From assembly GCA_016195815.1 (NCBI GenBank), contig JACPYX010000006.1, forward strand, positions 1 to 64,000: DNA of 64,000 bases, given 5' to 3'. The translations under genes and the position numbers were made by a program. Source of the stretch: Chloroflexota bacterium. GTDB taxonomy: Bacteria > Chloroflexota > Anaerolineae > Anaerolineales > Villigracilaceae. Positions 5,942 to 64,000 of this stretch are shown here, in pieces (position 1 is the stretch's first letter; the number at the start of each line of letters is the position of its first letter). The notes below the pieces were generated by a model. It did no database searches. It had not been told where the DNA came from and saw only the letters and a list, made by a program, of their open reading frames with translations.

Positions 5942-5958
5942 TTGCGCTCCTTCGTTGC

Positions 5959-6017
5959 TCGATACTCGATAATTCGTTATGCGGCTGAAAGTGTCGAGTA
6001 TCGAATTTCGAATATCG
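5959..6017. repeat. Inverted repeat between T-box terminator and valS start
   Basis: Perfect 11-bp inverted copies tcgatactcga (5959-5969) and tcgagtatcga (5994-6004) are followed by ttcgaatatcg. They lie between the T-box terminator and the valS ribosome binding site and could form a hairpin in the mRNA leader. Confidence 0.65.
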
Positions 6018-6022
6018 GCACT

Positions 6023-37322: not shown

Positions 37323-39410
37323 CTAGCGAACGATCACTGCATCCAGGGTGCCCATGGTATTAACTGGTCCGGTGAAGACCAGCTTCAGTGTGTGTTTGCC
37401 GTAAACCAATTGGCCCGGATAATCCCAGCGTTGCTGGAAGCGAAGGTCAGGTGACTGTTGATTAAGCGACCCGGCCAGCTGGTTATCTATATAGATGTCC
37501 ATGCTGCCATAACTTGGCCCCGCCGCGTACAGAACGCTGAAGGACTGACCGGTGAAGCTCAGCGTCACGGATGTGGCTTTTGTGCCAGTGTATTTGTATT
37601 TGCCTAAATAAGCCTGGCTGTTGGACACAAGCGGCCAGAATGAGGAGAACTTGAAAAAGCGATAGGTATCGTCATAGGTTGTCTCTGAAACTGGCGGTTG
37701 GGTTGTCGCTTGCGAAGTAGCTGTTGGCTGGGGTGATGTGGATGTTGCGGTGGGCAGTACCGGCGCAGGAGACGCGGTTGGGGTAGCTGTCAGAGGGATT
37801 GGCGTTGCAGTAAGAATCGGCAGAACCGGCGCGGGAGACGCGGTCGGAGTGGCCGTCAGAGGGATTGGCGTTGGGGTAAAAGTTGGCAGAACCGGCGCGG
37901 GAGACGCGGTCGGAGTAGCCGTCTGAGCGATCGGTGTTGAAGTAAAAGTCGGCAATATGGAGGACGCGGCCGCAAACTCAAAGGCTCCAATGTCAAAGCC
38001 CGCTCCTTGCGGCCGTAAATTGCCGTCAAAGTCACTTGGAATGCCGGAGTTGAATCCTTTATCTATGCACGGAGAAGCAGACTGCAGGCGAAAATTCTTA
38101 GCCGCCATATTTACGAAAAGCGGATTAAGCCCCCAAACATCGCCAGGATCTGGGGAACGCGCAGGAAGTCCGCCCGCCCTGTAAACGCAATTGTATCCCG
38201 CAGTGAGTGATGACTTTGAGATGCTGTCGGGCCAGATGGAGCCGACGCCATTCTCTTGATAGGCAAAGACGTTGTTTCGAATTTTTACGTTAGTCGTATT
38301 GGTTAAATAGATACCGGTTGAGTAAGCAAAATCAGGGTTACCCACGAAGGTATTATTTTCAAAGCGAATATCACGCGCCCCATTTATATTGGCTATCCCG
38401 TTCGTGTTAACGACGTTATTTATGAATGTCAGGTTGTATGCCCCGCCCTCCACCTGAAACGCCCTGGCTGCCACATTTAGGTTGAGCGAACTGGTTACGT
38501 TAATACAGGAATTGCCATCGAAAAGGATATCATGCCCTGCAATCTTGTCGCCTGCAAAGGTCTGAAAACAGTCCGTGTGAGAGTCGCTTATATAGTCGTT
38601 GGAAAGATTCTGAAGGCTGGCTAAACTGCAGGGTGTTCCCTGTGTGTATCCTTCAGGGCCAAACGGTATATCGTGGATCTTATTGTTCCTGAACACATGT
38701 CCGCTGCCGTGAAAAAGGATGCCGTTGGCATCCAGCCATGTCGCGCCCGCATAAGTCACGTTACACGGATTATTTTGAATGGTCTGGGAAATGTCGTTGC
38801 CCTCTACGAGGTGATTTTGTCCCATGATCTCCAGGCCGAATAAACCGTTTCGATATAGCACGTTGTTTTTTACAATGCAGTCATGCGTCGCAGATGGATT
38901 GGCAGGCAATCCCTGAAGACTGATCCCGCCCATCGTGCTGTATTGAACGGTGTTGTTTTCAATGTCGCACCAGCCGCCCTTATTGACAAGTATCCCAACC
39001 GCTAAATCAGCCAATGTAGTGACAGTAAAACCTTTGATGGTAACGTAGTCTGCAGAAACCACAAAGCCTTGCATATTCACAGTCCCTTGTGCTTGCAAGA
39101 CCACAGCGCGATTGACCGTAACTCTCTCGGCATAATTTCCAGCCAGGACTATCACTGTATCTCCTGCCGCCGCCGTGTTGACCGCCTTTTGAATAGTCTT
39201 AAAGGGAGCTGAAGATGTGCCTGGATTAGCGTCATTGCCGGTTGCAGACACGTAATAGATTGTCTGCGCAGCCAGGGCAGCTTGACTCTGCGCCCTCGCT
39301 GCAACCGGTTCGAAAGAAGCGTGCGCGCTCGTGTAGATGCCAAGTATCATTGCGAGCGCAATTGCGCTTGCAATGATGACGCTCGTTATTCGGTAAACTG
39401 TTTTAATCAT
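37323..39410 (-). CDS. Secreted parallel beta-helix surface protein
   Basis: The 695-aa protein has a signal peptide (to about residue 31-35) and a DUF1565-like opening (TIYYVSATGNDANPGTSSAPFKTIQKAV). A right-handed beta-helix of many N-rich turns follows (about 75-470), then a Thr/Pro linker built of 22-residue repeats (about 487-560), and a C-terminal beta-rich domain resembling carbohydrate-binding modules. It has no membrane anchor or sortase motif. Function is unknown: adhesin, polysaccharide binding or lyase. AAGGAG precedes the ATG. The probable c-di-GMP-I riboswitch upstream suggests it is made in response to the motile/sessile switch. Confidence 0.85.
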   Translation of the reverse strand: MIKTVYRITSVIIASAIALAMILGIYTSAHASFEPVAARAQSQAALAAQTIYYVSATGNDANPGTSSAPFKTIQKAVNTAAAGDTVIVLAGNYAERVTVNRAVVLQAQGTVNMQGFVVSADYVTIKGFTVTTLADLAVGILVNKGGWCDIENNTVQYSTMGGISLQGLPANPSATHDCIVKNNVLYRNGLFGLEIMGQNHLVEGNDISQTIQNNPCNVTYAGATWLDANGILFHGSGHVFRNNKIHDIPFGPEGYTQGTPCSLASLQNLSNDYISDSHTDCFQTFAGDKIAGHDILFDGNSCINVTSSLNLNVAARAFQVEGGAYNLTFINNVVNTNGIANINGARDIRFENNTFVGNPDFAYSTGIYLTNTTNVKIRNNVFAYQENGVGSIWPDSISKSSLTAGYNCVYRAGGLPARSPDPGDVWGLNPLFVNMAAKNFRLQSASPCIDKGFNSGIPSDFDGNLRPQGAGFDIGAFEFAAASSILPTFTSTPIAQTATPTASPAPVLPTFTPTPIPLTATPTASPAPVLPILTATPIPLTATPTASPAPVLPTATSTSPQPTATSQATTQPPVSETTYDDTYRFFKFSSFWPLVSNSQAYLGKYKYTGTKATSVTLSFTGQSFSVLYAAGPSYGSMDIYIDNQLAGSLNQQSPDLRFQQRWDYPGQLVYGKHTLKLVFTGPVNTMGTLDAVIVR
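37753..37950. repeat. 66-bp tandem repeat, three copies, in the beta-helix gene
   Basis: Units start at 37753, 37819 and 37885, each opening ggcag(a/t)accggcgc, with a truncated fourth start at 37951. The period of 66 bp keeps the frame and encodes 22-residue Ala/Thr/Pro repeats in the linker. The copies are nearly identical, so copy number may vary between strains. Confidence 0.9.
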
Positions 39411-51998: not shown

Positions 51999-52000
51999 CT

Positions 52001-53455
52001 ATGGATGAAAAACGCGGTGCGCCCGGCAGTTATGATTTTCTCTGGCTAAGCCTCGCTTTATTGCCCCTGCTTTTCATTTCGCTGCTTTTGCCTCTCACCC
52101 CTCACGATTATTGGTGGTATCTGCGGCTTGGGCAGGATATATTACGCGCGGGCTATGTGCCTTCCATCGAGACCTACAGTTTTACTTATGCCGGCACACC
52201 TGTCACCTATCAACCCTGGCTTTCTGCTGTTATTTTCCGTCTGGCTTATTCCGGCGGCGGCATGGATTTTACTTTTCTTTTGCGCGCGCTCTTCATCGGA
52301 GCGGCTTATGGGTTGTTATGGTTATGGATGCGGCAGTTGGGCGCCGGGCCGCGGCTGGCAGCCGTCCTAATCATCATTGCGGGACTGGCGGGTAGTAATA
52401 ATTGGTCCTTTCGGCCGCAGATGTTTGCCTATCCCTTGTTCACCCTCACGCTTGTTATTTTATGGAACTGGCAAACAGGGAAAAATAAAACGGCCTGGCT
52501 TTTGCCGTTGATCGCCCTGCTGTGGGCTAACATCCATGAATCTTTTTTGCTCTTATTCTTGCTGGAAGGCGCCGCATTGGTTTTCGGGAAGGGAAATCGA
52601 AAAACCTTAACCCTGGTCATCGTTTTTACTTTTCTCGCTTCCCTGGTTACTCCGTACGGCATGGCTTTATGGAAGTCTCTCAGCGCTTCTTTTTTGTCTC
52701 CTCTTGCTTGGGATGTGAGCAGTGAATGGCTGCCGCCGGCCAATCTTGGCTGGCAGATGAATATTTTTTTTGCCTGGGTTTTGCTGTTAATATTATTCGC
52801 GTCCCTTTCGCCGCGTCGTCCTTCAAAGTTGGAATGGGTTTGGCTGCTAGGATTGCTTTGGATGTCTTTTTCCGGGCTGCGATACGTGATCTGGGGACTC
52901 ATCATTATGGCGGCCTTTACTGCAAATTTATTGGCCGATTGGGATTTGCGTTGGCTTGATAGACCGGCCAGGAGCGGGCATCCTGTCTTGAATTACGCTC
53001 TTGCGCTTATATTTTTATTTATTCCCCTCGTTGCATTGCCGGGCGCGCGCGCTAGGCTCGGGATCAAATCTCCGCCGGTCATCAGCGTGGATACCCCGCT
53101 CGCGGCAACTGCGTGGCTTTCCCAACACCCCGAACTCCCCGGCCCTCTTTGGAGCGACCTGACGTTTTCGAGCTATCTCATTTTTGCCCTGCCGTCACGA
53201 CCCGTATGGGTTGACACTCGTTTTGCGCTGGCTTATCCCGCTGAACAATATCAACGTTTCAGCCAGATCGCCGGCGCGTCGCCAAATTGGCAGGCATTAC
53301 TGGATCGCGACAATATCAATTTGCTGATGATTTCACCGCAAAGTGAACCCAACCTTTTGCAGGCTGTTGCGATCTCTGGCCAATGGTGCAGGCAATATCG
53401 CGACGATATCGCAGTTATATTCAGCCGCAATCGTTCAGGCCAGCCCTGTCCATGA
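52001..53455 (+). CDS. GT-C-like polytopic membrane protein
   Basis: The 484-aa protein has about eleven hydrophobic segments and a C-terminal outside domain. The first loop contains PHDYWWYLRLGQDILRAG and then PSIETYSFTYAGTP, a pattern common to a group of GT-C-like glycosyltransferases and unnamed bacterial membrane proteins, with the first-loop acidic residue in place. It lies between two GT4 genes (two bases after the first, four-base ATGA overlap with the second). Function is inferred from context. Confidence 0.75.
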   Translation: MDEKRGAPGSYDFLWLSLALLPLLFISLLLPLTPHDYWWYLRLGQDILRAGYVPSIETYSFTYAGTPVTYQPWLSAVIFRLAYSGGGMDFTFLLRALFIGAAYGLLWLWMRQLGAGPRLAAVLIIIAGLAGSNNWSFRPQMFAYPLFTLTLVILWNWQTGKNKTAWLLPLIALLWANIHESFLLLFLLEGAALVFGKGNRKTLTLVIVFTFLASLVTPYGMALWKSLSASFLSPLAWDVSSEWLPPANLGWQMNIFFAWVLLLILFASLSPRRPSKLEWVWLLGLLWMSFSGLRYVIWGLIIMAAFTANLLADWDLRWLDRPARSGHPVLNYALALIFLFIPLVALPGARARLGIKSPPVISVDTPLAATAWLSQHPELPGPLWSDLTFSSYLIFALPSRPVWVDTRFALAYPAEQYQRFSQIAGASPNWQALLDRDNINLLMISPQSEPNLLQAVAISGQWCRQYRDDIAVIFSRNRSGQPCP

Positions 53456-54561
53456 AAACAATATTTTCTTTTCAAGGCCGTCTCGGTCTGCAGCAACGAG
53501 TCCTGCCCGCGTATCGCGTGCCTTTCTTTGACATGTTAGCGCAGTCTTGCGAGGGCGGCATGAGTCTCTTCGCGGGACTGCCGCGCCCCAGTGAGAGCAT
53601 TGCTTATGCAAAAGATTTCCGTTTTGCAAAATATGCTGTCGCTCACAATATCCATCTCTTGGATGGGTCATTTTATTTTTGCTATCAACGCGGATTGATT
53701 GCCTGGCTCACAGATTGGAACCCCGACGCGTTGATCGTCGAAGCCAACCCGCGTTACCTCGCGACTTCCTCCGCCGTGAAGTGGATGCGCTCACGCGGAC
53801 GTAAAGTCATTGGCTGGGGATTGGGCGCGCCACATCTTTCCGGACCCTTTGCCGGACTCCGTCAAACGCGCCGCATCCACTTCCTCGGGCAATTCGACGC
53901 GTTGATCGCTTACAGTCAGCGCGGCGCTGATGAATATGCCGCGCTCGGTTTCCCACGCGAGAAGATTTTCGTCGCACCGAATGCGGTTGCATCCAAGCCT
54001 TTATCCCCTCTCCCCTCACGACCTTCAACTTTCAACATTCAACCTGCAATTTTATTCGTTGGCCGACTGCAAGCCCGCAAGCGCGTTGACTTCTTGCTCC
54101 GCGCTTGCGCGGAGTTGAACCTAAAAGTGCGTTTGATGATCGTCGGCGATGGGCCGGAGCGGGAAAATCTAGAGTCGTTGGCGAAACGGGTTTATCAGTC
54201 AGCGGAGTTTATCGGAGCCAGGCATGGGGACGAGTTGAAGCCTTATTTCATGGAAGCCGATATTTTCGTCCTGCCCGGAACCGGCGGACTGGCCGTGCAG
54301 GAAGCCATGAGTTACGGCCTGCCTATCATTGTCGCAAAAGGGGATGGCACGCAGGATGACCTCGTCCGCGAATCGAACGGCTGGCAAATCCCGCCGGAGG
54401 ATTATGCCGCGCTGGTCAGCACACTGCGAACAGCTCTATCGGACGTGAATCGTTTGCGAAAGATGGGGGAAGAATCTTTTCGAATTGTTTCGGAAGAGAT
54501 CAATCTCGAAAAAATGGTCGAGGGGTTTGTGCGAACGTTGAACAGCATGAATGTTCAGTGA
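53452..54561 (+). CDS. Glycosyltransferase family 4
   Basis: The 369-aa GT-B protein has an N-terminal acceptor domain with RVLPAYRVPFFDML, the inter-domain start FVAPNAVASKP and ILFVGRLQARKRVDFLL. The donor-binding block is ADIFVLPGTGGLAVQEAMSYGLPIIVAKGDGTQDDLV. The start at 53452 overlaps the previous stop (ATGA). Residues about 184-199 are encoded by an oligo-repeat (54022-54049) placed exactly at the linker between the two domains. The sugar is unknown. Confidence 0.88.
   Translation: MKTIFSFQGRLGLQQRVLPAYRVPFFDMLAQSCEGGMSLFAGLPRPSESIAYAKDFRFAKYAVAHNIHLLDGSFYFCYQRGLIAWLTDWNPDALIVEANPRYLATSSAVKWMRSRGRKVIGWGLGAPHLSGPFAGLRQTRRIHFLGQFDALIAYSQRGADEYAALGFPREKIFVAPNAVASKPLSPLPSRPSTFNIQPAILFVGRLQARKRVDFLLRACAELNLKVRLMIVGDGPERENLESLAKRVYQSAEFIGARHGDELKPYFMEADIFVLPGTGGLAVQEAMSYGLPIIVAKGDGTQDDLVRESNGWQIPPEDYAALVSTLRTALSDVNRLRKMGEESFRIVSEEINLEKMVEGFVRTLNSMNVQ
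54022..54049. repeat. Oligo-repeat in frame in a glycosyltransferase gene
   Basis: The stretch ccttcaactttcaacattcaacc is built of ttcaac words and is read in frame as PSTFNIQP between the two Rossmann domains. The same word type occurs at 43621-43648 and 33427-33441. Confidence 0.6.
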
Positions 54562-54601
54562 ACGGGAACGCCTCGTCCCGAACCAGCGGCGAGATCAGTC
54601 T

Positions 54602-55120
54602 TCAGCTCACCGCTTTCTTTACGAGTTCGCCAATCCTTGCCTCTTCGGTGGCAGTCAACTCCTTTAGTGCAAAGGCAACCGGCCACAAAGTTCCTTCGTC
54701 GAGGTTCGCCGTGTCGCTGAAGCCCAACGTTGCGTACCTCGTGTTGAACTTCTGCGCGCTTTGGAAGAAGCAGACGACCTTGCCGTCCTTGGCATACGCG
54801 GGCATCCCGTACCAGGTTTTCGGCGAGAGGGCCGGCGCGCTGGCTTTGATGATCGCATGAAGCCGCTTGGCCATGGCGCGATCCGGTTCTTTCATCGCGC
54901 TGATTGCCGCAAGCACGGCGCTTTCCCCATCCGCCTTGTCTTTGTTCGCGCGCGCTTCCGCCTTCAGTTCTTGGGCGCGAGCCTTCATCGCGGCTCGTTC
55001 CTCTTCCGTAAATCCCTTGGACTTGTTGATCGCGGTGGTGCTCTCCCTGGCACCGCCCGTCAGGGCAGGTGTGGCGGACTTCTGCGTGGCCTTCTTCGTG
55101 GTGCTTTTACCTGGGTTCAT
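54602..55120 (-). CDS. DUF1801 domain protein
   Basis: The 172-aa protein has a Lys/Thr/Ala-rich N-terminus (residues 1-35), a helical charged segment ([24 protein letters not shown]) and a C-terminal DUF1801 (YdhG-like) domain with [20 protein letters not shown]. Some members are called iron chaperones. AAGGAG precedes the ATG at 55120. It interrupts the glycosyltransferase cluster on the opposite strand and may be a recent arrival. Confidence 0.85.
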
Positions 55121-55232
55121 GAGAATCTCCTTCCATTTGTTTGAATTAGTGTGTCGCAAGACAACCTGGCAAAAATTACAGTATACGTGTTCTAAAATTT
55201 CAACAGCTTTGAATTATACTTTAGCACGCTCG
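55121..55232. other. Intergenic gap between DUF1801 and GT87-like genes
   Basis: No gene, clear hairpin or riboswitch is visible. The DUF1801 ribosome binding site occupies the left edge. Confidence 0.4.
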
Positions 55233-56624
55233 TCAAGCCTTGAGTTCCGGCAAATTCATCAGCCAATTGTTGAATACGCCAAAGAATTTTGACGTTTCTT
55301 TTCTTTGGCTGGTTCTCCACATCAGCCCCAAAACGATCAATGGCGCGATGAGTCTCCCATACGACCAGGGGAAGAAATCAAAAGTCGGCAGGATGAATTC
55401 GAGGAAATAGGCAAAGCCGAACCACATCCATTCGGATGGCGTTTCAAGTCTTTTGAGCATGAGCAAAAAGGCCAGCGCGACGAAAATGCCGTGATGTTCC
55501 CAGACGATGGGCGAGGCCAGCGTCATCAAAATGAACAGCGGCGGAATTGCGTTGAAGAGACGCGCGCCGCGTTCTTTTGATTCGTAAAACGTTTGATTTT
55601 GCACGCATCGCGTCATGACGAAAAATGCTGCGGCGGCCAGCAGGGCTTTCGAGGCGTAGACAAGGATTCGGGTCCAGATGGAAGCGAGGTTGAAGAATTC
55701 GCCGATGGCCGTGAAGAAAGAGTCGAATGAGTTATCGCGGAAGGAGAGTCCGTGCGATTGAGTCAGCAAAAAGGCGTTGTTGACAAAATCCATGAATGGC
55801 GACGCGCCGTGCAGGATCAGCGTCGGCGCGGCGACCAGGATCATCGAAAGCGCGAACCATGCCAGCCATTTCCAATCCAGTTCGAGCAGGAAGGCCAGCG
55901 CCAGCACCGCGGGCGAAGCCTTGAAATTGACGGCCAGCGCCATTGCCAGAGCCGATAGAAACGGGCGGTCGCGATACAGAAGAATGCCAAGCAGGATGAA
56001 ATTCAAAACATGCAGGTTGACCTGCACATAAAACAACGTGCGCAGCAGTGTGGCATTGACCAGCAAAAAGAGAGTCGTGGTCAGCGCGGCGAGGCGCGCG
56101 GAGAAGTTGTAACGCTCGAGAGTTTTTGTCAGCAGAAAATAAAATACGAAGAGCGAAAACAGATTCAACGTCCATGCAAAATAAGCGATGGCCTTTTCAC
56201 CGAATGGCGCAAAGAGTTCAAGAATGTTGGCCCACAGCGGCGGATAAAGATATTCGGGCGGGAGAGGTTTGCCCGCGTAGAGATCGAGCGCGGCGCGGGC
56301 GTAATATTCTACGTCGCCGTAATCGGCGCGCTCACGCAGAAGATTCAAGGCCGCGAAGGCCGTCAAGAAGAATCCCGCCCACAAAAAAATATTTTTGGAA
56401 TGGATGCGATTGGATGAAAGCAGAAACAGCAAAAGCCCGGCCAACAGCCAGGCGAACGTCACGGATAACAGCGTCACGGTCAAATCGCTGATCGGGCCGC
56501 GCTGAATGAGGATGTTGAATCCGTCAGCGCCGCGCCACAGATAAATAACAGGCAAACTGGCCGCGACCAGAATACTGATCGCGGCCCAGGCGGCAAAAGC
56601 TATGCGCGAGGCGCTCTTCCTCAT
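55233..56624 (-). CDS. GT87/DUF2029-like membrane glycosyltransferase
   Basis: The 463-aa protein has about eleven hydrophobic segments. The loop ERADYGDVEYYARAALDLYAGKPLPPEYLYPPLWA carries the acidic residue and YPP motif typical of GT87 polyprenyl-phosphate-dependent transferases. It overlaps the upstream C39/SH3 gene by four bases (ATGA). It resembles the 13411-14595 protein in kind but not closely. Substrate is unknown. Confidence 0.78.
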   Translation of the reverse strand: MRKSASRIAFAAWAAISILVAASLPVIYLWRGADGFNILIQRGPISDLTVTLLSVTFAWLLAGLLLFLLSSNRIHSKNIFLWAGFFLTAFAALNLLRERADYGDVEYYARAALDLYAGKPLPPEYLYPPLWANILELFAPFGEKAIAYFAWTLNLFSLFVFYFLLTKTLERYNFSARLAALTTTLFLLVNATLLRTLFYVQVNLHVLNFILLGILLYRDRPFLSALAMALAVNFKASPAVLALAFLLELDWKWLAWFALSMILVAAPTLILHGASPFMDFVNNAFLLTQSHGLSFRDNSFDSFFTAIGEFFNLASIWTRILVYASKALLAAAAFFVMTRCVQNQTFYESKERGARLFNAIPPLFILMTLASPIVWEHHGIFVALAFLLMLKRLETPSEWMWFGFAYFLEFILPTFDFFPWSYGRLIAPLIVLGLMWRTSQRKETSKFFGVFNNWLMNLPELKA

Positions 56625-57826
56625 TTGGCTTTTACGTACTGCGCCGCCACATAGCCTTGTTTATTGTTGGTCGCTTTCACCGCGATCCATTGTCCCGCCA
56701 CGCCGATCTTCGGTGTGGCCGAACTGGCCGGCTCGATCACCGTTAATCGCGCGCCGGCTTTTTCCATGTTCACAGTAGCAGAGCCTTGCGATGGCTGCTG
56801 GCGCACTGCTAATCCCGCCGCGCCAACGCTTGAGGACACGATGACTTGGAATCGTTGCGGAGCGGGCGCGGGAGGAGTTGGCGCGGACGGTGTGGCTGGA
56901 GTCGAAGCGGGCACCGGTTCGGGCGCGGACCCGGTGGCGGGCGCGGGCGTCGTTGAAGTTGGCGCGGCGCCTGCGGCTTTTTCCACATACCACGCCGCGA
57001 CATAACCTTGATTCCCTTGTTGGTCGCGGACGTAAATCCACTGTTGTGAGCCGATCTTGGCCAAAGCGCCAGCTTTATCTTCAATGACTCTCAATTGAGT
57101 GCCAGGCATTTCAGCAAAGTTCGCCGGTGAATCCTGCGATGCCGCTATGTGAAGCCTTATGCCTGCGGTGGCGGATGCAACGACCTGCACAATGAGATCA
57201 GTTTCAACAGGAGTTGGCATCGGCGTGGACGGAGTCGTTGTGGTGGAGCCGCTTGAAGTCCCGGAAGGAGGCGGAGGGGTTGTTCCGCTCCCCGTCGCGC
57301 TGGCCTCATACCATGCGACCGCGGTGATCACATTCTTGAGCGGTTTGCCGAATGCGTAACGCGCGCCGAAAAGATTCTCGCCGCTTTCGACTGGGTACGG
57401 CCAGGGATCGAGCATCAGGTAGTCGCCGCCTTTTTTGGCGTACAACACCACCCAGTGAGTCTGAAAGCCGGACTGGGTCGAGCGGTCCATTTCCACCAGC
57501 ACGGGCTGGCCGGCCGCGAGCGAGGCGTCTATTTGTGCGAGAGGCGCTTCGGTCGTGCGGCTGATGGTCAGCCCTTTGAATTTGATTTGAGGATGGATGG
57601 AACTGACCGCGCCCCACACGATCAGGGCTTCGAGAAAACCGCCGCTGGCAGCGAGTTTTTTGTTGACGGTTTTGGGCGTTTCGGGGTAGCCCCAGCCGCT
57701 CAAGTACATGGCAACGCTGGTCACCGCGCATCCGAACGTGCCGAGTGTATCGTCGGTGCTGTTGCCGAGATTGTCGTTCTTCCATTGCGGATCCTGCTGG
57801 GAATAACGAACGAGATTGAATGCCAT
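56621..57826 (-). CDS. C39-like peptidase with two SH3-type domains
   Basis: The 401-aa protein has an N-terminal C39-like domain with Cys33 in GTFGCAVTSVAM, His124 in THWVVLYA and Asp140 in LMLDPWPY, the expected triad. Two bacterial SH3 domains follow (about 210-285 and 325-400, each ending QGYVAAWYV/QGYVAAQYV), separated by Pro/Thr/Ser linkers. The domain build suggests cell-wall cleavage, yet no signal peptide is seen at the N-terminus MAFNLVRYSQ. GGAGGTGAGAC fixes the start. It is translationally coupled to the GT87-like gene. Confidence 0.82.
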   Translation of the reverse strand: MAFNLVRYSQQDPQWKNDNLGNSTDDTLGTFGCAVTSVAMYLSGWGYPETPKTVNKKLAASGGFLEALIVWGAVSSIHPQIKFKGLTISRTTEAPLAQIDASLAAGQPVLVEMDRSTQSGFQTHWVVLYAKKGGDYLMLDPWPYPVESGENLFGARYAFGKPLKNVITAVAWYEASATGSGTTPPPPSGTSSGSTTTTPSTPMPTPVETDLIVQVVASATAGIRLHIAASQDSPANFAEMPGTQLRVIEDKAGALAKIGSQQWIYVRDQQGNQGYVAAWYVEKAAGAAPTSTTPAPATGSAPEPVPASTPATPSAPTPPAPAPQRFQVIVSSSVGAAGLAVRQQPSQGSATVNMEKAGARLTVIEPASSATPKIGVAGQWIAVKATNNKQGYVAAQYVKAK

Positions 57827-57889
57827 GTCTCACCTCCGATGTTGAATTGACGATAAAGTGTGAATATCGAATTGATTATACAGCGAAAG

Positions 57890-57924
57890 CAAAAAAATCA
57901 GCCCCCGTTGAGATGCCGGGGCTG
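57890..57924 (-). terminator. Terminator of the SpeD-family gene
   Basis: The stem CAGCCCCGGCATCTCAACGG…GGCTG on the minus strand is followed by ATTTTTTT. It lies 20 bases after the stop codon. Confidence 0.85.
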
Positions 57925-57943
57925 TATATTTTGAATCAGTGTA

Positions 57944-58309
57944 TCAACGCCGCTCGACCGATTGAAGATTGTAGCGCTCAGCCTTGAAATATTCCTTTGC
58001 ATATTCCGCGGCTGCTTTCGGGTCATATGGCGCGCAACTGAACACATCCAGATAAATGGCGCGCGAGGCGTTGGCAAAATGTGCCGAGATCAGTGAGGTC
58101 TCGATCAATTGCATCATGCTGAAGCCCTCGACGCGCGGATCATCGCCGAAGTGAACAACGTGAGTCTCTCCATAGCGGCGCATCCCGATCTTTTCACACA
58201 AGCGAACGACAAATTCTTTAATCGCCGGCGCATCCTGCATGAGATTCAGATCGCAGTCATACAAGTCAATACAGGAGGAGAGTCCCCAATAGGGAGGGTT
58301 TTGATTCAT
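57944..58309 (-). CDS. S-adenosylmethionine decarboxylase (SpeD) superfamily protein
   Basis: The 121-aa protein matches small class 1b SpeD pro-enzymes that self-cleave to form a pyruvoyl group. Ser72, His77 and Cys92 have the same spacing as Ser63, His68 and Cys83 of the Thermotoga enzyme, and DVFSC is typical. The residues around the cleavage site differ: Thr71 replaces the usual Glu, and Leu73 the usual His. Such variants include enzymes that act on ornithine or arginine, so the substrate is open. AGGAGCACAC precedes the ATG at 58309. No speE is adjacent. Confidence 0.8.
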   Translation of the reverse strand: MNQNPPYWGLSSCIDLYDCDLNLMQDAPAIKEFVVRLCEKIGMRRYGETHVVHFGDDPRVEGFSMMQLIETSLISAHFANASRAIYLDVFSCAPYDPKAAAEYAKEYFKAERYNLQSVERR

Positions 58310-58635
58310 GTGTGCTCCTAAAATTTGATGAGGATACATGCGCTACTTTACCAAACCCCGCGGGGAAATGCAATGTTAAATTTCATTCTTCGAGAAAGTT
58401 TCCGGTTCATGTTTTTCGACGAAGCCCGCGCCAAGTTTGCCTGAGGAGGAAAATCACCACCGAGTCACGGAGAACACTGAGAAAAAGCGTTAAAAAATCT
58501 CCCTCGGCGTCTCTGCGGCTTGCTCTTTTGGGCTACCTGCAACCTTTGAATGTTCCCGTATCATGCCATCTACATCATCCTTCATCCTTTTCCGTTATAA
58601 TTCCCCTTAATACATCCAATTCATGGAGAGAGTAC
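58310..58635. other. Divergent intergenic region with a repeat-like element and promoter
   Basis: The region holds ccgagtcacggagaacactgag and, about 40 bases on, ctcggcgtctctgcggc (58459-58521). These are words of the cacagagacacagagaac type of dispersed repeat. TATAAT at 58596-58601 is a likely -10 for the dehydrogenase operon (-35 weak). GGAGAGAG lies before the E1 start. No gene is supported. Confidence 0.55.
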
Positions 58636-61047
58636 ATGCCCAGGAAAAAGGGTTCTGTTACGCTTCCTTTATCCCCCGAAGAAATCATCAAAGATTATCG
58701 TTTAGCATACCAATCACGGCAGGCGAGTCTGATTGGCAGACGTGAAGTGTTGAGCGGAAAGGCCAAGTTCGGAATCTTCGGCGACGGCAAGGAACTCGCC
58801 AACCTCGCCATCGCGCGCGCCTTCCGCAAAGGCGACTGGCGCTCCGGCTATTATCGTGACCAGACTTGGATGTTTATGCTGGGTGTAATGAGCATCCAGG
58901 AATTTTTCGCACAACTCTACGCGCACGCCGATCTCGCCGCCGAATCAAACACAGCCGGGCGCGGCATGAACGCGCATTTTGCTTCGCGTTACATCAACGC
59001 CGATGGCTCGTGGAAGAATCAAACCGAGATGTATAACACCTCCGCGGATGTCTCGCCCACCGGCACACAGATGCCGCACGCGGTTGGGCTGGCGTATGCG
59101 TCCGTTGTGTATCGCAAATCGAAAGAGCTTGAGCAGTCCAATCACTTCTCGCGCAACGGCGACGAAGTCACCTTCGTCAGCATCGGCAACGCATCCACTG
59201 CCGAGGGCATGTTCTGGGAATCGGTCAATGCCATCGGTGTTCTGCAAGCGCCGGCGGTTATCACCGTCTACGACGACGGCTACGGTATCTCTGTTCCCAA
59301 TCAATTTCAAATGGTCAAGGAAAATATCTACGCCATTCTCAAAGGTTTCGAGCGCGACGATTGCATGGAGGAGGAGTGCGAGCGCGGCTACGGCCTCTAT
59401 CAAGTGCGCGGCTGGGATTATCCCGCGCTGATCGAAACCTATCAAAAAGCGGGCGAGATCGCGCGCAGGCATCATATTCCGCAATTGATCCATGTGACCG
59501 ATCTGACGCAGCCGCAGGGACATTCAACCTCGGGAAGTCACGAACGATATAAATCTGCGGAGCGGCTCAAGTTCGAGGAAGAATTCGATTGCGTGACGAA
59601 GATGCGCGCATGGATGATAGAAAACCGCGTCAGTTCGGACCCCGAGCTGGCTGCGCTCGAAAAAGCCGACCATGAAACTGTGGAGAGAATCCGCAAAACC
59701 GCGTGGGACGCGTATCTCAACCCGATTCTCGAGGAGCGCGCGCAAGTGATGGACATGTTCGATGAGATCGCGGGGTCTTCGAGTCACGCGTCAGAGTTGA
59801 ATCAGATCAAAGAACGGCTGGCCGCCCTCCCGTCGCCGTTGAGGCGTGATCTTCATTCCGCGGCGCATGAAGCATTGCGAGCCCTGCGCGGCGAAGCGAA
59901 TCCATCCAAGCAGGTTTTGGCCCAATGGAAGAACGAACAGGACGCGGTCAACATCGAACGCTATGGTTCGAATCTTTACAGCCGCGAAGCGTTGAGGGTG
60001 AAAGAAGTCAAGCCGATGTATTCGCCATCTTCGCCAACCGTGATGGGATTTGAAATCATGAACGCTGCTTTTGATGCAATTCTCAAACGCGACCCGCGCG
60101 TGATTGCGTTCGGTGAAGATGTGGGTTTTCTCGGTGACGTGAACCAGGGCTTCAAAGGCATGCAGGAAAAATACGGCGCGCTGCGCGTGACCGATACCGG
60201 CATTCGCGAAGCCACGATTTTGGGGCAGGCGATCGGCATGGCGATGCGCGGGCTGAGGCCGATTTGCGAAATTCAATATCTTGATTATTTGTTGTACGCG
60301 TTGCAGATCATGTCCGATGATCTGGCGACTCTGCACTGGCGCTCCGCAGGCGGACAGTCTGCGCCGGTCATTATTAGAACGCGCGGGCATCGTCTCGAGG
60401 GCATCTGGCATTCGGGTTCGCTGATGTCGGGCATCATCAATCTCGTGCGCGGCGTCAATGTGCTCGTGCCGCGCGACATGACGCGCGCCGCAGGTTTTTA
60501 TAATACGATGTTGAAAACCAATGAGCCTGCGCTGATCGTCGAAGTGTTGAACGGCTATCGCGTCAAAGAGAAATTGCCCGATAACATCGGCGGGATGACC
60601 GCGCCGCTGGGCATGCCTGAAGTCATCCGCGAAGGAAGCGATATCACCATTGTCACTTATGGCGCGTGCTGTCGCATCGCGCTGGACGCGGCGGAGAAAT
60701 TGTCAAAAGCTGGCATTGAAGTTGAAGTCATTGATGTTCAATCCTTATTACCGTTCGATATTCACGGCAGGATTGTCGAGTCGCTCAAGAAGACCAACCG
60801 TGTTGTATTTTTGGATGAAGATGTGCCGGGAGGCGCGTCGGCGTACATGATGCAGGAAGTCATCGAGAAGCAGGGCGGTTATTATCATCTTGATTCCGAG
60901 CCGCGCACGTTATCTGGCACGGCCCATCGTCCCGCGTATGGAAGCGATGGGGATTATTGGAGCAAGCCAAATAGCGAGACGGTTTTTGATATGATATATG
61001 AGATTATGAATGAAGTGGATCCAGCGGCGTATCCGCCGCTTCGTTGA
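58636..61047 (+). CDS. Fused 2-oxoacid dehydrogenase E1 (alpha-beta)
   Basis: E1 decarboxylates a 2-oxoacid with thiamine diphosphate and acylates the E2 lipoyl group. The 803-aa protein joins E1-alpha (1 to about 440) and E1-beta (about 460-803). Alpha has the cofactor segment IGNASTAEGMFWESVNAIG…YDDGYGIS and a GHSTSGSHERYKSAERL loop. Beta begins VMGFEIMNAAFDAILKRDPRVIAFGEDVG with the catalytic-type Glu. The first cofactor motif reads GNA where Asp is expected, a possible change in Mg binding. E2 and E3 follow. Branched-chain 2-oxoacids or pyruvate are both possible substrates. Confidence 0.9.
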   Translation: MPRKKGSVTLPLSPEEIIKDYRLAYQSRQASLIGRREVLSGKAKFGIFGDGKELANLAIARAFRKGDWRSGYYRDQTWMFMLGVMSIQEFFAQLYAHADLAAESNTAGRGMNAHFASRYINADGSWKNQTEMYNTSADVSPTGTQMPHAVGLAYASVVYRKSKELEQSNHFSRNGDEVTFVSIGNASTAEGMFWESVNAIGVLQAPAVITVYDDGYGISVPNQFQMVKENIYAILKGFERDDCMEEECERGYGLYQVRGWDYPALIETYQKAGEIARRHHIPQLIHVTDLTQPQGHSTSGSHERYKSAERLKFEEEFDCVTKMRAWMIENRVSSDPELAALEKADHETVERIRKTAWDAYLNPILEERAQVMDMFDEIAGSSSHASELNQIKERLAALPSPLRRDLHSAAHEALRALRGEANPSKQVLAQWKNEQDAVNIERYGSNLYSREALRVKEVKPMYSPSSPTVMGFEIMNAAFDAILKRDPRVIAFGEDVGFLGDVNQGFKGMQEKYGALRVTDTGIREATILGQAIGMAMRGLRPICEIQYLDYLLYALQIMSDDLATLHWRSAGGQSAPVIIRTRGHRLEGIWHSGSLMSGIINLVRGVNVLVPRDMTRAAGFYNTMLKTNEPALIVEVLNGYRVKEKLPDNIGGMTAPLGMPEVIREGSDITIVTYGACCRIALDAAEKLSKAGIEVEVIDVQSLLPFDIHGRIVESLKKTNRVVFLDEDVPGGASAYMMQEVIEKQGGYYHLDSEPRTLSGTAHRPAYGSDGDYWSKPNSETVFDMIYEIMNEVDPAAYPPLR

Positions 61048-61485
61048 TGGTTGACAGTCGGCAGTTGACAGCAGGAGAGGGCAGATGGAGCAAACTCAAG
61101 AAAAAGTGACTGCGCGCAACTATCGAGATTTAATTGTTTGGCAAAACGCGATCAAACTTGCTAAGGAAATTTACAAACTGACCGAGAAATTTCCAAAACA
61201 TGAAACCTACGCTCTCGCTGACCAAATTCGCCGTGCTGTTGTTTCCGTCCCATCTAATATTGCCGAGGGCCAAGCCCGCAAAACTCCCGCGGATTTTCGA
61301 CGGTTCTTGTACATTGCACTCGGATCATTAGCCGAAGTAGATACACAATTGATTTTGGCTCAAGAGTTCAATTATCTGAGCAAAGAAGACGTGGATGGCA
61401 TGGATGGACAAATTCAAGAATTGCGCAAGAAACTTTATGCGCTCATGAATAGTTTGCCTGCACGTTGACCAACAACTGTCAACCA
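61048..61485. mobile_element. Possible small mobile unit carrying an S23-type gene
   Basis: A perfect 11-bp inverted repeat, tggttgacagt at 61048-61058 and actgtcaacca at 61475-61485, brackets the four-helix-bundle gene. It lies between E1 and E2 of a dehydrogenase operon. The left edge begins directly at the E1 stop codon and includes ttgacagtcggcagttgacag. The right edge includes ccaccaactaccaac. The same words recur inside the E2 gene. No target duplication or transposase is seen; movement would have to be in trans or by another route. This is an inference. Confidence 0.5.
61085..61468 (+). CDS. Four-helix-bundle protein, S23/23S rRNA intervening-sequence family
   Basis: The 127-aa protein has the family opening NYRDLIVWQNAIKLAKEIYKLTEKFP. 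It continues with the conserved LADQIRRAVVSVPSNIAEGQAR and RRFLYIALGSLAEVDTQL blocks; the protein is all-helical. Relatives sit in intervening sequences of 23S rRNA and, as Avd, in diversity-generating retroelements, where Avd binds RNA and reverse transcriptase. Here there is no rRNA, reverse transcriptase or variable repeat. GGAGAGGGCAG precedes the ATG. It is placed between E1 and E2 and flanked by inverted repeats. Confidence 0.92.
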   Translation: MEQTQEKVTARNYRDLIVWQNAIKLAKEIYKLTEKFPKHETYALADQIRRAVVSVPSNIAEGQARKTPADFRRFLYIALGSLAEVDTQLILAQEFNYLSKEDVDGMDGQIQELRKKLYALMNSLPAR

Positions 61486-61509
61486 CCAACTACCAACTGG
61501 AGAAATTTT

Positions 61510-62763
61510 ATGGCAACCAAAGTACTCGTCCCGCTGCTCGGCGAAGGCGTGGAAGAAGTTACCGTTACGAAATGGCTCAAGCAGGAAGGCGAGACGGTCA
61601 AAGAACTCGAGCCTTTGCTCGAAGTCAACACCGATAAAGTGGACACTGAAATCCCCGCGCCCGCGTCAGGGACGGTGTTGAAGATCGTGGCGCAGGAAGG
61701 CGTCCCCGCCAGGGTCGGCGCGGTATTGGCGTTCATCGGCAAGCCGGGAGAGACAGTTGACAGTGGGCAGTCGTCAGTTGTCAGTGAAAAACCTGCTGGA
61801 GCAACTTCCAAAGTCGTAACAGATCAAGGTCAATCGCCAGCGACCAACCTCCAACCACCAACCATCAACCGCCAACCATCCACTGAGATTGGATTCATTT
61901 CCCCTGTGGTTGCGAAGATCGCGGCCGAGCATGGAGTGAACTTATCTCAAGTGCAAGGCACAGGATCGAATGGACGCATTACGAAGAACGATGTGGTGGC
62001 ATTTGTCGAGAATCAGAAGTCGGGGATTGGCGCGTCGGTTGCCAAACCTGCCGATTTGCAACCTGTAAACTTGACACCCATTCTTGACGATCAACTTATC
62101 AAGCATACCGTCATCCGCAAACAGATCGCGGAGCATATGGTTATGTCCAAACACACATCGCCGCACGTGCTGACCGTGATGGAAGCGGACATGAGCAAGG
62201 TCGCCGCTCATCGCGCCGCGAACAAGGACAACTTCGCCCGAGACAGCGTCAATCTCACATTCACGGCCTACTTTATGATGGCGATTGTGGCAGGATTAAA
62301 AGCCCATCCATTGACAAACTCATCGTGGACAGACGAAGGCATTCGCGTTCACAAAGCCGTCAACCTGGGCATGGCAACTTCGCTCGGCGAGGAGGGCCTG
62401 ATCGTGCCGGTCATCAAGAACGCGGACAATCTCTCGCTGTTAGCCATGGCGCGTTCGGTGAATGATTTGGCAAACCGGGCGCGCGCGAAAAAACTTCAGC
62501 CCGATGAAGCGCGCGGCGGCACGTTCACGCTGACCAATCACGGCATCAGCGGCTCGCTGTTCGCCTTCCCGGTCATCAACCAGCCGCAATGCGGTATTCT
62601 CGGCGTCGGTGCGATGCAGAAGCGCGTCGTGGTTATAAACGATGCAATTGCAATAAGGCCGATGGTATATTTGTCGTTCGTGTTCGATCATCGTATTTTA
62701 GATGGGGCCAGCGCGGATGCCTTTCTGATGAAGGTCAAAGAGACACTGGAGAATTGGAGTTAA
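61510..62763 (+). CDS. Dihydrolipoamide acyltransferase (E2)
   Basis: E2 is the core of the dehydrogenase complex. The 417-aa protein has one lipoyl domain (lipoyl Lys in NTDKVDTE, about residues 1-75), an odd linker (81-125), a peripheral subunit-binding domain (FISPVVAKIAAEHGVNLSQVQGTGSNGRITKNDVV) and the catalytic domain ending FDHRILDG with the His and Asp of the acyltransferase site. The start at 61510 has GGAG before it. The linker is encoded by the same oligo-repeats that bracket the S23 gene, replacing the usual Ala/Pro linker. Confidence 0.94.
   Translation: MATKVLVPLLGEGVEEVTVTKWLKQEGETVKELEPLLEVNTDKVDTEIPAPASGTVLKIVAQEGVPARVGAVLAFIGKPGETVDSGQSSVVSEKPAGATSKVVTDQGQSPATNLQPPTINRQPSTEIGFISPVVAKIAAEHGVNLSQVQGTGSNGRITKNDVVAFVENQKSGIGASVAKPADLQPVNLTPILDDQLIKHTVIRKQIAEHMVMSKHTSPHVLTVMEADMSKVAAHRAANKDNFARDSVNLTFTAYFMMAIVAGLKAHPLTNSSWTDEGIRVHKAVNLGMATSLGEEGLIVPVIKNADNLSLLAMARSVNDLANRARAKKLQPDEARGGTFTLTNHGISGSLFAFPVINQPQCGILGVGAMQKRVVVINDAIAIRPMVYLSFVFDHRILDGASADAFLMKVKETLENWS
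61753..61884. repeat. Oligo-repeat unit forming the E2 linker
   Basis: The left part (61753-61786) reads acagttgacagtgggcagtc and so on. The right part (61842-61884) is made of ccaacc/caaccacc words. Left and right parts match the sequences on the left and right of the S23 gene: gttgacagtcggcagt differs by one base from gttgacagtgggcagt, and caaccaccaac is shared. It is read in frame. Confidence 0.7.
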
Positions 62764-62764
62764 G

Positions 62765-63232
62765 ATGGCTGAACAAAAAGATCACGCGGATGTGAAGATT
62801 CCCCCGCCCGTTTTGACGTTGATCCACATTGGAATTGCATATGCGGCGAAATGGCTCATTCCCATCCCGTTTGCGGTTCCGAATATTTTGCGAACCATCG
62901 GCTTGCCGTTGGCCGCCGTCGGCTTTCTGCTGGCCATCGGCGCATTCCTGGAATTCAGGAAGGCAGGCACCACAGTAGACCCGCACGGTCCGGTGAAAAG
63001 CATCGTCATCTCGGGAGTTTATCGTTTTACGCGCAATCCAATCTATTTGGGCTTTCTGCTGGTGTTGATCGGTATTCCGCTCAACAGCGGCACATATTGG
63101 GGAATTCTCCTTGCGCCTGTTTTCATCGTCAGCATCAACAATCTTGTCATTCAGCACGAAGAGGCCTATCTGGAGAAAAAGTTTGGGGATGTTTACGCCG
63201 GTTATAAGTCCCGCGTGAGGCGCTGGATATAA
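62765..63232 (+). CDS. Isoprenylcysteine carboxyl methyltransferase-like membrane protein
   Basis: The 155-aa protein belongs to the ICMT/PEMT-type methyltransferase group, with four to five hydrophobic segments and the conserved end GVYRFTRNPIYLGFLLVLIG…EEAYLEKKFGDVYAGYKSRVRRWI. The RNPxY and EE parts form the SAM/membrane site in the family. It starts one base after the E2 stop, so it is translated with the dehydrogenase genes, but a link to the complex is not known. Substrate is unknown. Confidence 0.88.
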   Translation: MAEQKDHADVKIPPPVLTLIHIGIAYAAKWLIPIPFAVPNILRTIGLPLAAVGFLLAIGAFLEFRKAGTTVDPHGPVKSIVISGVYRFTRNPIYLGFLLVLIGIPLNSGTYWGILLAPVFIVSINNLVIQHEEAYLEKKFGDVYAGYKSRVRRWI

Positions 63233-63255
63233 AGTAAAATTGAAACAACACCAAA

Positions 63256-63327
63256 TGTCATTGCGAGGACGTTCTTCGCCCGAAGCAATCTCCGCTTTCA
63301 ATAATCATTGCTTCGCTCGCAACGACA
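63256..63327. repeat. Dispersed palindromic repeat (GTCRTTGCGAG type), copy 2
   Basis: Outer arms tgtcattgcgag (63256-63267) and ctcgcaacgaca (63316-63327), with inner arms cgaagcaatctc and attgcttcg, match the element at 12046-12153 in shorter form. It lies 15 bases before the E3 start, within the operon. Confidence 0.82.
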
Positions 63328-63342
63328 TCAATAGGAGAAATC

Positions 63343-64000
63343 ATGGCAGAAAATTTTGACGTCATCGTCATCGGCGCCGGGCCGGCCGGATACGTGGCCG
63401 CCATCCGCGCCGCGCAGTTGAAGCAAAAGGTCGCCATTGTGGACAAGCAGTGGCTGGGCGGCGTGTGTTTGAACGTCGGTTGTATTCCGTCCAAGTCATT
63501 GTTGAAGAATGCGGAAGTCGCTCATACTTTGCGCGAACGCGGCAAGGACTTTGGATTTTCATTCGACAATCTCAAACTCGATTATGGCGTGGCCGTCAAA
63601 CGCTCGCGGCAGAATTCGGACCGGCTGACCAAAGGCGTTGGATTTTTGATGAAGAAAAATAACATTGCGGTCTTCATGGGCGAAGCGCATCTTAGCGGAC
63701 CCAAAGCGGTCTCCGTCAAAGATAAGGATGGCAAGCTGACGGATCTCGCCGCTAAAAACATCATCGTGGCGACGGGCGCCAGCGCGGCTGTTCCCGCCGC
63801 GTGGAAAGTGGACGGTGAAAAAGTCGTCACATATCTCGAAGCCATTTTGCAGGAGAAACTCCCGAAATCGGTCATCGTAATCGGCTCTGGCGCGATCGGC
63901 GTGGAATTCGCGACAGTTTGGAGTTCCTACGGAGTGGACGTGACGGTCGTCGAGATGCTGCCGCGCATCGTTCCGCTGGAAGATGAAGAAGTCTCGAAAG
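63343..64000 (+). CDS. lpdA: Dihydrolipoamide dehydrogenase (E3), truncated by the window edge
   Basis: E3 reoxidises the lipoyl group of E2 with FAD and NAD. The 219 residues visible start MAENFDVIVIGAGPAGYVAA (FAD-binding GxGxxG), then GGVCLNVGCIPSKSLL with the redox-active CxxxxC pair, an ATGA-type second FAD motif, and the NAD-binding VIVIGSGAIGVEFA. The frame is open to the end of the window. AGGAGAAATC precedes the ATG. It completes the E1-E2-E3 set. Confidence 0.97.
   Translation, partial: MAENFDVIVIGAGPAGYVAAIRAAQLKQKVAIVDKQWLGGVCLNVGCIPSKSLLKNAEVAHTLRERGKDFGFSFDNLKLDYGVAVKRSRQNSDRLTKGVGFLMKKNNIAVFMGEAHLSGPKAVSVKDKDGKLTDLAAKNIIVATGASAAVPAAWKVDGEKVVTYLEAILQEKLPKSVIVIGSGAIGVEFATVWSSYGVDVTVVEMLPRIVPLEDEEVSK

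Follow-up and report, generated by a model that had tools for sequence, protein, structure and literature searches.

We describe a small cassette that splits the E1 and E2 genes of a 2-oxoacid dehydrogenase operon in a Chloroflexota genome, within a window (the whole stretch of DNA analysed, 64,000 nucleotides of contig C11). It consists of a gene for an S23-type four-helix bundle protein, a G-rich array of 7-nt repeats in front of it and the inverse, C-rich array behind it. This architecture recurs at S23 genes of many other genomes, with arms that match within an element and an upstream arm placed at the stop codon of the preceding gene; two sites turn over between relatives, and similar arrays occur without an ORF. 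We consider it probable that G-rich heptamer array, S23 gene and inverse C-rich array together form one cassette, positioned where a preceding gene in the same orientation has its stop codon.

The initial annotation described a discrete 438-bp unit (61048-61485) with perfect 11-bp inverted ends, starting at the first base after the E1 stop codon and holding an S23 gene. The ends and the gene are as described: TGGTTGACAGT at 61048-61058 and ACTGTCAACCA at 61475-61485 are exact complements, and the S23 gene, a PF05635 member, is the sole gene between them (Table 1). The limits had been drawn too narrowly on both sides. On the right, the array continues to about 61498; the extended arms (61043-61058 and 61475-61490; 16 nt, 94% complementary) overlap the TGA of E1 at 61045-61047.

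Table 1. Features at and near the E1-E2 junction, in window positions.
Feature	Position	Strand	Basis
E1, fused 2-oxoacid dehydrogenase alpha/beta gene	58636..61047	+	ORF, sequence
Upstream (G-rich) arm, degenerate 7-nt array: TG GTTGACAG TCGGCA GTTGACAG	61048..61071	+	pairs with 61473-61498
Shine-Dalgarno-like GGAGAGGG of the S23 gene	61074..61081	+	sequence, by eye
S23 / four-helix bundle gene, 127 aa	61085..61468	+	PF05635, TIGR02436; predicted fold; purifying selection
Downstream (C-rich) arm with a 7-nt period, CAACTGTCAACCACCAACTACCAACT; inverted complement of the G-rich array	61473..61498	+	sequence comparison
GGAG, Shine-Dalgarno of E2, immediately 3' of the right arm	61499..61502	+	sequence, by eye
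E2, dihydrolipoamide acyltransferase gene	61511..62763	+	in-frame ORF
S23-less arm with the word of the cassette (GACAGTT), in frame in the E2 linker, ORF-less	61751..61786	+	sequence
Facing arm ACCAACC of the second, S23-less pair inside E2	61836..61880	+	sequence

The window holds 39 inverted pairs of at least 15 nt within 600 nt, so the inverted repeat of the cassette is unremarkable by itself, and its arm score of 15-16 is unexceptional among swapped pairs. Both numbers would suit an inverted repeat that surrounds an ordinary gene by chance, but the permutation tests and the 108 loci presented below make this hardly credible. The non-random features are the period of 7 in the arms and the layout that recurs at other S23 genes. 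Seven segments of period 7 were found in the window, as against none of periods 4-6 or 8-10.

A PF05635 search identified five S23 genes in this genome, and all five are flanked by facing arrays (by eye), each of another word: AAGGTTGAAAGTTGA (L002), GAGAGTAGAGAA (L003), GAAAGAGGAAAG (L004) and AAAGCAGTAGGCAG (L005) at the other four. Thus the inverted heptamer layout is shared between copies while its sequence is not, and the ends are not a conserved repeat that could be recognised by a transposase; the unrelated flanks that the initial annotation named as contrary evidence are unrelated in letter, not in kind. Words also mostly differ among the S23 copies of genome G003. In another genome, a 4.4-kb stretch holds three S23 cassettes, each with its own word (L197, G019:C11:7283-11681). 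That each copy has its own word rules out a fixed terminal inverted repeat. A relic of a conventional DNA transposon or a MITE, with terminal inverted repeats served by a transposase in trans, would account for a unit with inverted ends and for ORF-less forms, but is very unlikely, as the end sequences differ between copies within one genome, a transposase gene is absent, a target duplication was not identified, and the internal gene encodes a four-helix bundle.

For a quantitative comparison, downstream flanks of S23 genes were reverse-complemented, and each upstream flank was aligned with the one from its own locus (own arms) or from another locus (swapped arms). At 34 loci from this genome and its relatives, own arms scored 18.9 and swapped arms 10.8, the highest of 10,000 permuted means being 14.0; at 74 loci of public genomes that span many phyla, the values were 21.9 and 10.3, with a highest permuted mean of 12.2. 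By record title, the latter set includes Chloroflexota, Bacteroidota, Planctomycetota, Acidobacteriota, Proteobacteria, Clostridia, Kiritimatiellota, Verrucomicrobia, CPR and others, and the cassette layout is found in more than 10 bacterial phyla. Since individual arm pairs in this genome have modest scores (15-16), the case rests on these pooled tests. A score of at least 18, a cut-off picked after the scores were seen and of which the permutation tests are independent, was reached by 61% of 108 S23 loci, compared with 2.5% of 353 control ORFs and 0.5% of swapped control pairs; the remaining S23 loci, about 39%, score below the cut-off. Within the arms, identity is 0.59 at lag 7 and 0.55 at lag 14, against 0.24-0.30 at other lags. 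Of 63 upstream arms with a decided bias, 59 have more G than C and 4 have less. Words with a stop triplet number 46 of 74, a mild excess over the 36 +/- 3.6 expected from letter shuffling; because 7 is not a multiple of 3, such a word closes all frames. At one cyanobacterial locus, on a Pseudanabaena plasmid (L237, 1400-1500 and 1858-1950), the S23 gene lies between cas6 and cas4 and the arrays, AAAAGCT upstream and AAAAGCC downstream, are direct rather than inverted.

Placement relative to neighbouring genes was assessed for 87 elements with an arm score of at least 16, with naive ORFs as neighbours. In raw counts, uncorrected for a genome baseline, 80 elements have a callable upstream neighbour, which shares the strand of S23 in 71; of 75 downstream neighbours, 53 do so, and the two proportions differ with p 0.008. 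In 68 of the 71 co-directional cases, the arm begins within 35 nt of the upstream neighbour's stop codon. A typical cassette would have one arm overlapping or following the stop of a host gene and its far end abutting the Shine-Dalgarno of the next. On cyanobacterial plasmids, one S23 gene separates cas10 from cmr3 and has GGAGATA arms; another, with GGGAGTA arms, is located between the two ribonucleotide reductase genes, antisense to both. As the initial annotation stated, the cassette is outside rRNA: there is no Rfam match in window 52000-64000, and none of 79 S23 loci from public genomes is in rRNA.

The E1-E2 site turns over. An empty-site check in relatives, proposed by the initial annotation, bore out a discrete unit, the junction being empty with a gap of 16-25 nt in L049 and L059 and of about 16 nt in L066. 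It carries the S23 type of the window in L037, L038, L041 and L010, and a second S23 type with CAGTGATCAGT-like words, about 33% identical in three of the five, in L040, L042, L052, L056 and L064. In L057 it holds a heptamer hairpin without an ORF, and in other relatives GxxExxY genes or CGCAGAG-type hairpins. At folD, this genome has an S23 relic with arms, a same-genus genome has in this position a hairpin with the same word but no ORF, and many other genomes have no heptamer array. From this turnover we infer that the cassette is mobile. No transposition event was seen, in that no near-identical cassette was found at two unrelated sites, and no target-site duplication was identified, the known empty sites being too diverged for exact ends. 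In several genera, the S23 lineage of the window has remained at the E1-E2 junction and so looks inherited in place.

This inheritance, together with purifying selection on the gene and the numerous heptamer arrays without S23, would be expected if S23 were an ordinary vertical operon gene and the arrays were independent simple repeats gathering at gene ends as tolerated intergenic positions. Such a reading is already disfavoured, and we think it unlikely: arms of this kind are rare at control ORFs in the same loci, they match within elements and not between them, and the same junction in relatives holds another S23 type with another word.

ORF-less arrays are abundant. Genome-wide counts were obtained by single-pattern and family searches. 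With one mismatch allowed, CAGTRATCAGTRATCAGT, the one word surveyed, occurs in 35 of 61 genomes, with up to 240 matches per genome and a reversed-pattern control near zero; the matches overlap within one array, so arrays are fewer than matches. Of 50 genomes with S23, 34 have the pattern, as does 1 of the 11 that lack S23 (Fisher p 0.0005, uncorrected for phylogeny), and S23 copy number correlates with match number (Spearman 0.65, likewise uncorrected for phylogeny). Word sharing between loci occurs mainly above 70% S23 identity and drops to a few per cent below 60%, with no overall correlation between S23 identity and word sharing (rho 0.02). Word-specific recognition by the S23 protein is accordingly unsupported, and co-specificity of protein and word was set aside as an explanation.

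Further repeats were observed in the window. An ORF-less heptamer hairpin, GGAATCAGGAATTAGGGATT / AATTCCTGATTCC, lies in frame within a valyl-tRNA synthetase-like gene (4088-4150) and has a word similar to the Xanthomonas GGGAATC repeat; more period-7 runs are found within or at the start of this gene (3772-3803, CGAGATT; 5955-6018, TCGAATA). A TTCAACA array at 54018-54052 has the word type of the S23 arms of L002, and a 66-nt unit is tandemly repeated in 3.1 copies at 37753-37954.

The S23 protein matches PF05635 with 143 bits (cut-off 33.8, E 3.8e-42) and TIGR02436 with 138 bits (cut-off 24, E 1.2e-40), and its AF2 model is a four-helix bundle with a pLDDT of 92.7. Comparison of orthologs (pN 0.05-0.15, pS saturated) indicates that the gene is under purifying selection. 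The nearest solved structure to the predicted fold is XCC0516 (2GSC, TM 0.87), followed by Avd (4DWL, 8UB7; TM 0.73), which matches weakly in sequence. The XCC0516 and Avd structures are pentamers, and by analogy the S23 protein is probably pentameric as well. It differs from the Avd of DGRs in that it scores 32.1 bits, under the NF033474 cut-off of 80, and in that no reverse transcriptase adjoins it. The sole reverse transcriptase of the genome lies on contig C14, away from the window, in agreement with the initial annotation, and a link to DGRs or reverse transcriptases was rejected. Two S23 relatives were found on viral contigs. S23 is not known to have nuclease activity.

In our preferred reading of a heptamer-armed cassette, the cassette and its ORF-less derivatives would disperse as elements. 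S23 would be expressed through read-through of the host operon, and its protein may bind folded RNA or single-stranded DNA of the arms and assist a host enzyme in copying the unit. The matched arms would most likely come from repeat slippage and template switching between arms as the arrays are made, and would decay independently thereafter.

Alternatively, the cassette may act as an intervening sequence at the mRNA level, where the arms pair in the polycistronic transcript and RNase III cuts the stem, which would free the S23 mRNA, split the E1 and E2 messages and let the element persist because a cut between genes is harmless. This is possible but rather unlikely, and mobility could hold at the same time. 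Its parallel is the 23S rRNA intervening sequence of Coxiella burnetii, a 428-nt, RNase III-cut sequence with an S23 ORF (PMC4990558), which has the same protein family, a similar size and the same layout of an S23 ORF in a stem loop. The co-directional placement of cassettes also fits, as does a predicted sense-RNA fold that pairs the arms, equalled by 3 of 100 shuffles. Against this, selection for RNA pairing is not evident. Mismatches between arms on the sense strand show no excess of G.U over A.C (145 vs 169, p 0.19), and at orthologous loci own arms match no better than arms swapped between orthologs, which gives no sign of ongoing compensatory change. Compensatory selection at the RNA level was thus discarded, and the two results suggest that arm pairing was set at array formation and is not maintained by RNA-folding selection. 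An RNase III-type processing role for the arms is possible.

In its layout, the S23 cassette is best read as related to the intervening sequence of rRNA. Both have an S23 ORF looped between complementary ends. Unlike the rRNA form, the cassettes lie between protein genes, their arms are 7-nt arrays of variable word at stop codons, and ORF-less forms abound.

RAYT proteins are Y1-type nucleases, and REP sequences are conserved within a genome, whereas the S23 words vary between copies. REPs and REPINs with RAYT resemble the cassettes as small, palindromic, dispersed intergenic units, many of them gene-less (PMC3116915). The arms also have the 7-nt periodicity of cyanobacterial STRRs and, like the other known heptamer repeats of Xanthomonas, Nostoc and Beggiatoaceae, are tandem and intergenic. 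Xanthomonas GGGAATC and Nostoc GGGGATT repeats form intergenic 7-nt tandem arrays, and two Xanthomonas genomes each have 70-75 inverted pairs in convergent orientation (PMC4692102). Some TAACTGA arrays of Beggiatoaceae overlap with stop codons, and the patchy occurrence of this repeat suggests that it spreads horizontally (PMC4679880). The accessible parts of these two papers report such repeats as over-represented in bacteria, give no cause or means of spread, and name no link to an S23 or four-helix gene (PMC4692102, PMC4679880). Here, in contrast, the arrays frame S23 genes. Among the open-access papers searched, none was found that connects inverted or tandem repeats with S23 or the 'four helix bundle protein', and we provisionally regard the link as novel.

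Many proteins are annotated as 'four helix bundle protein', a label with no known function behind it. If S23 is the gene of a heptamer element, there would be a testable explanation for both S23 proteins and heptamer repeats, the rRNA intervening sequence would become a special case of a widespread element, and a practical annotation rule would follow for S23 genes and S23-less hairpins. We put forward only tentatively the broader idea that S23 cassettes are transposase-less mobile elements found throughout bacteria, for whose dispersal an RNA/DNA-binding pentamer, self-complementary heptamer arms and host enzymes would suffice, that the orphan heptamers of cyanobacteria, Xanthomonas and Beggiatoaceae may be ORF-less derivatives, and that GxxExxY genes with 9-nt arrays may be a second, parallel class.

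The GxxExxY genes of relatives (TIGR04256 / PF13366) have matching arms (own 20.6 vs swapped 11.1, n=29; best permutation 15.1), and these arms have a period of 9, with an identity of 0.40 at lag 9. GxxExxY genes, of the PD-(D/E)XK nuclease superfamily, occupy the E1-E2 junction in L051, L054 and L060 and are also found at L149-L178, with facing 9-nt arrays of which CGCAGAGA, ACGGATNNC and ACGAATGNC are examples.
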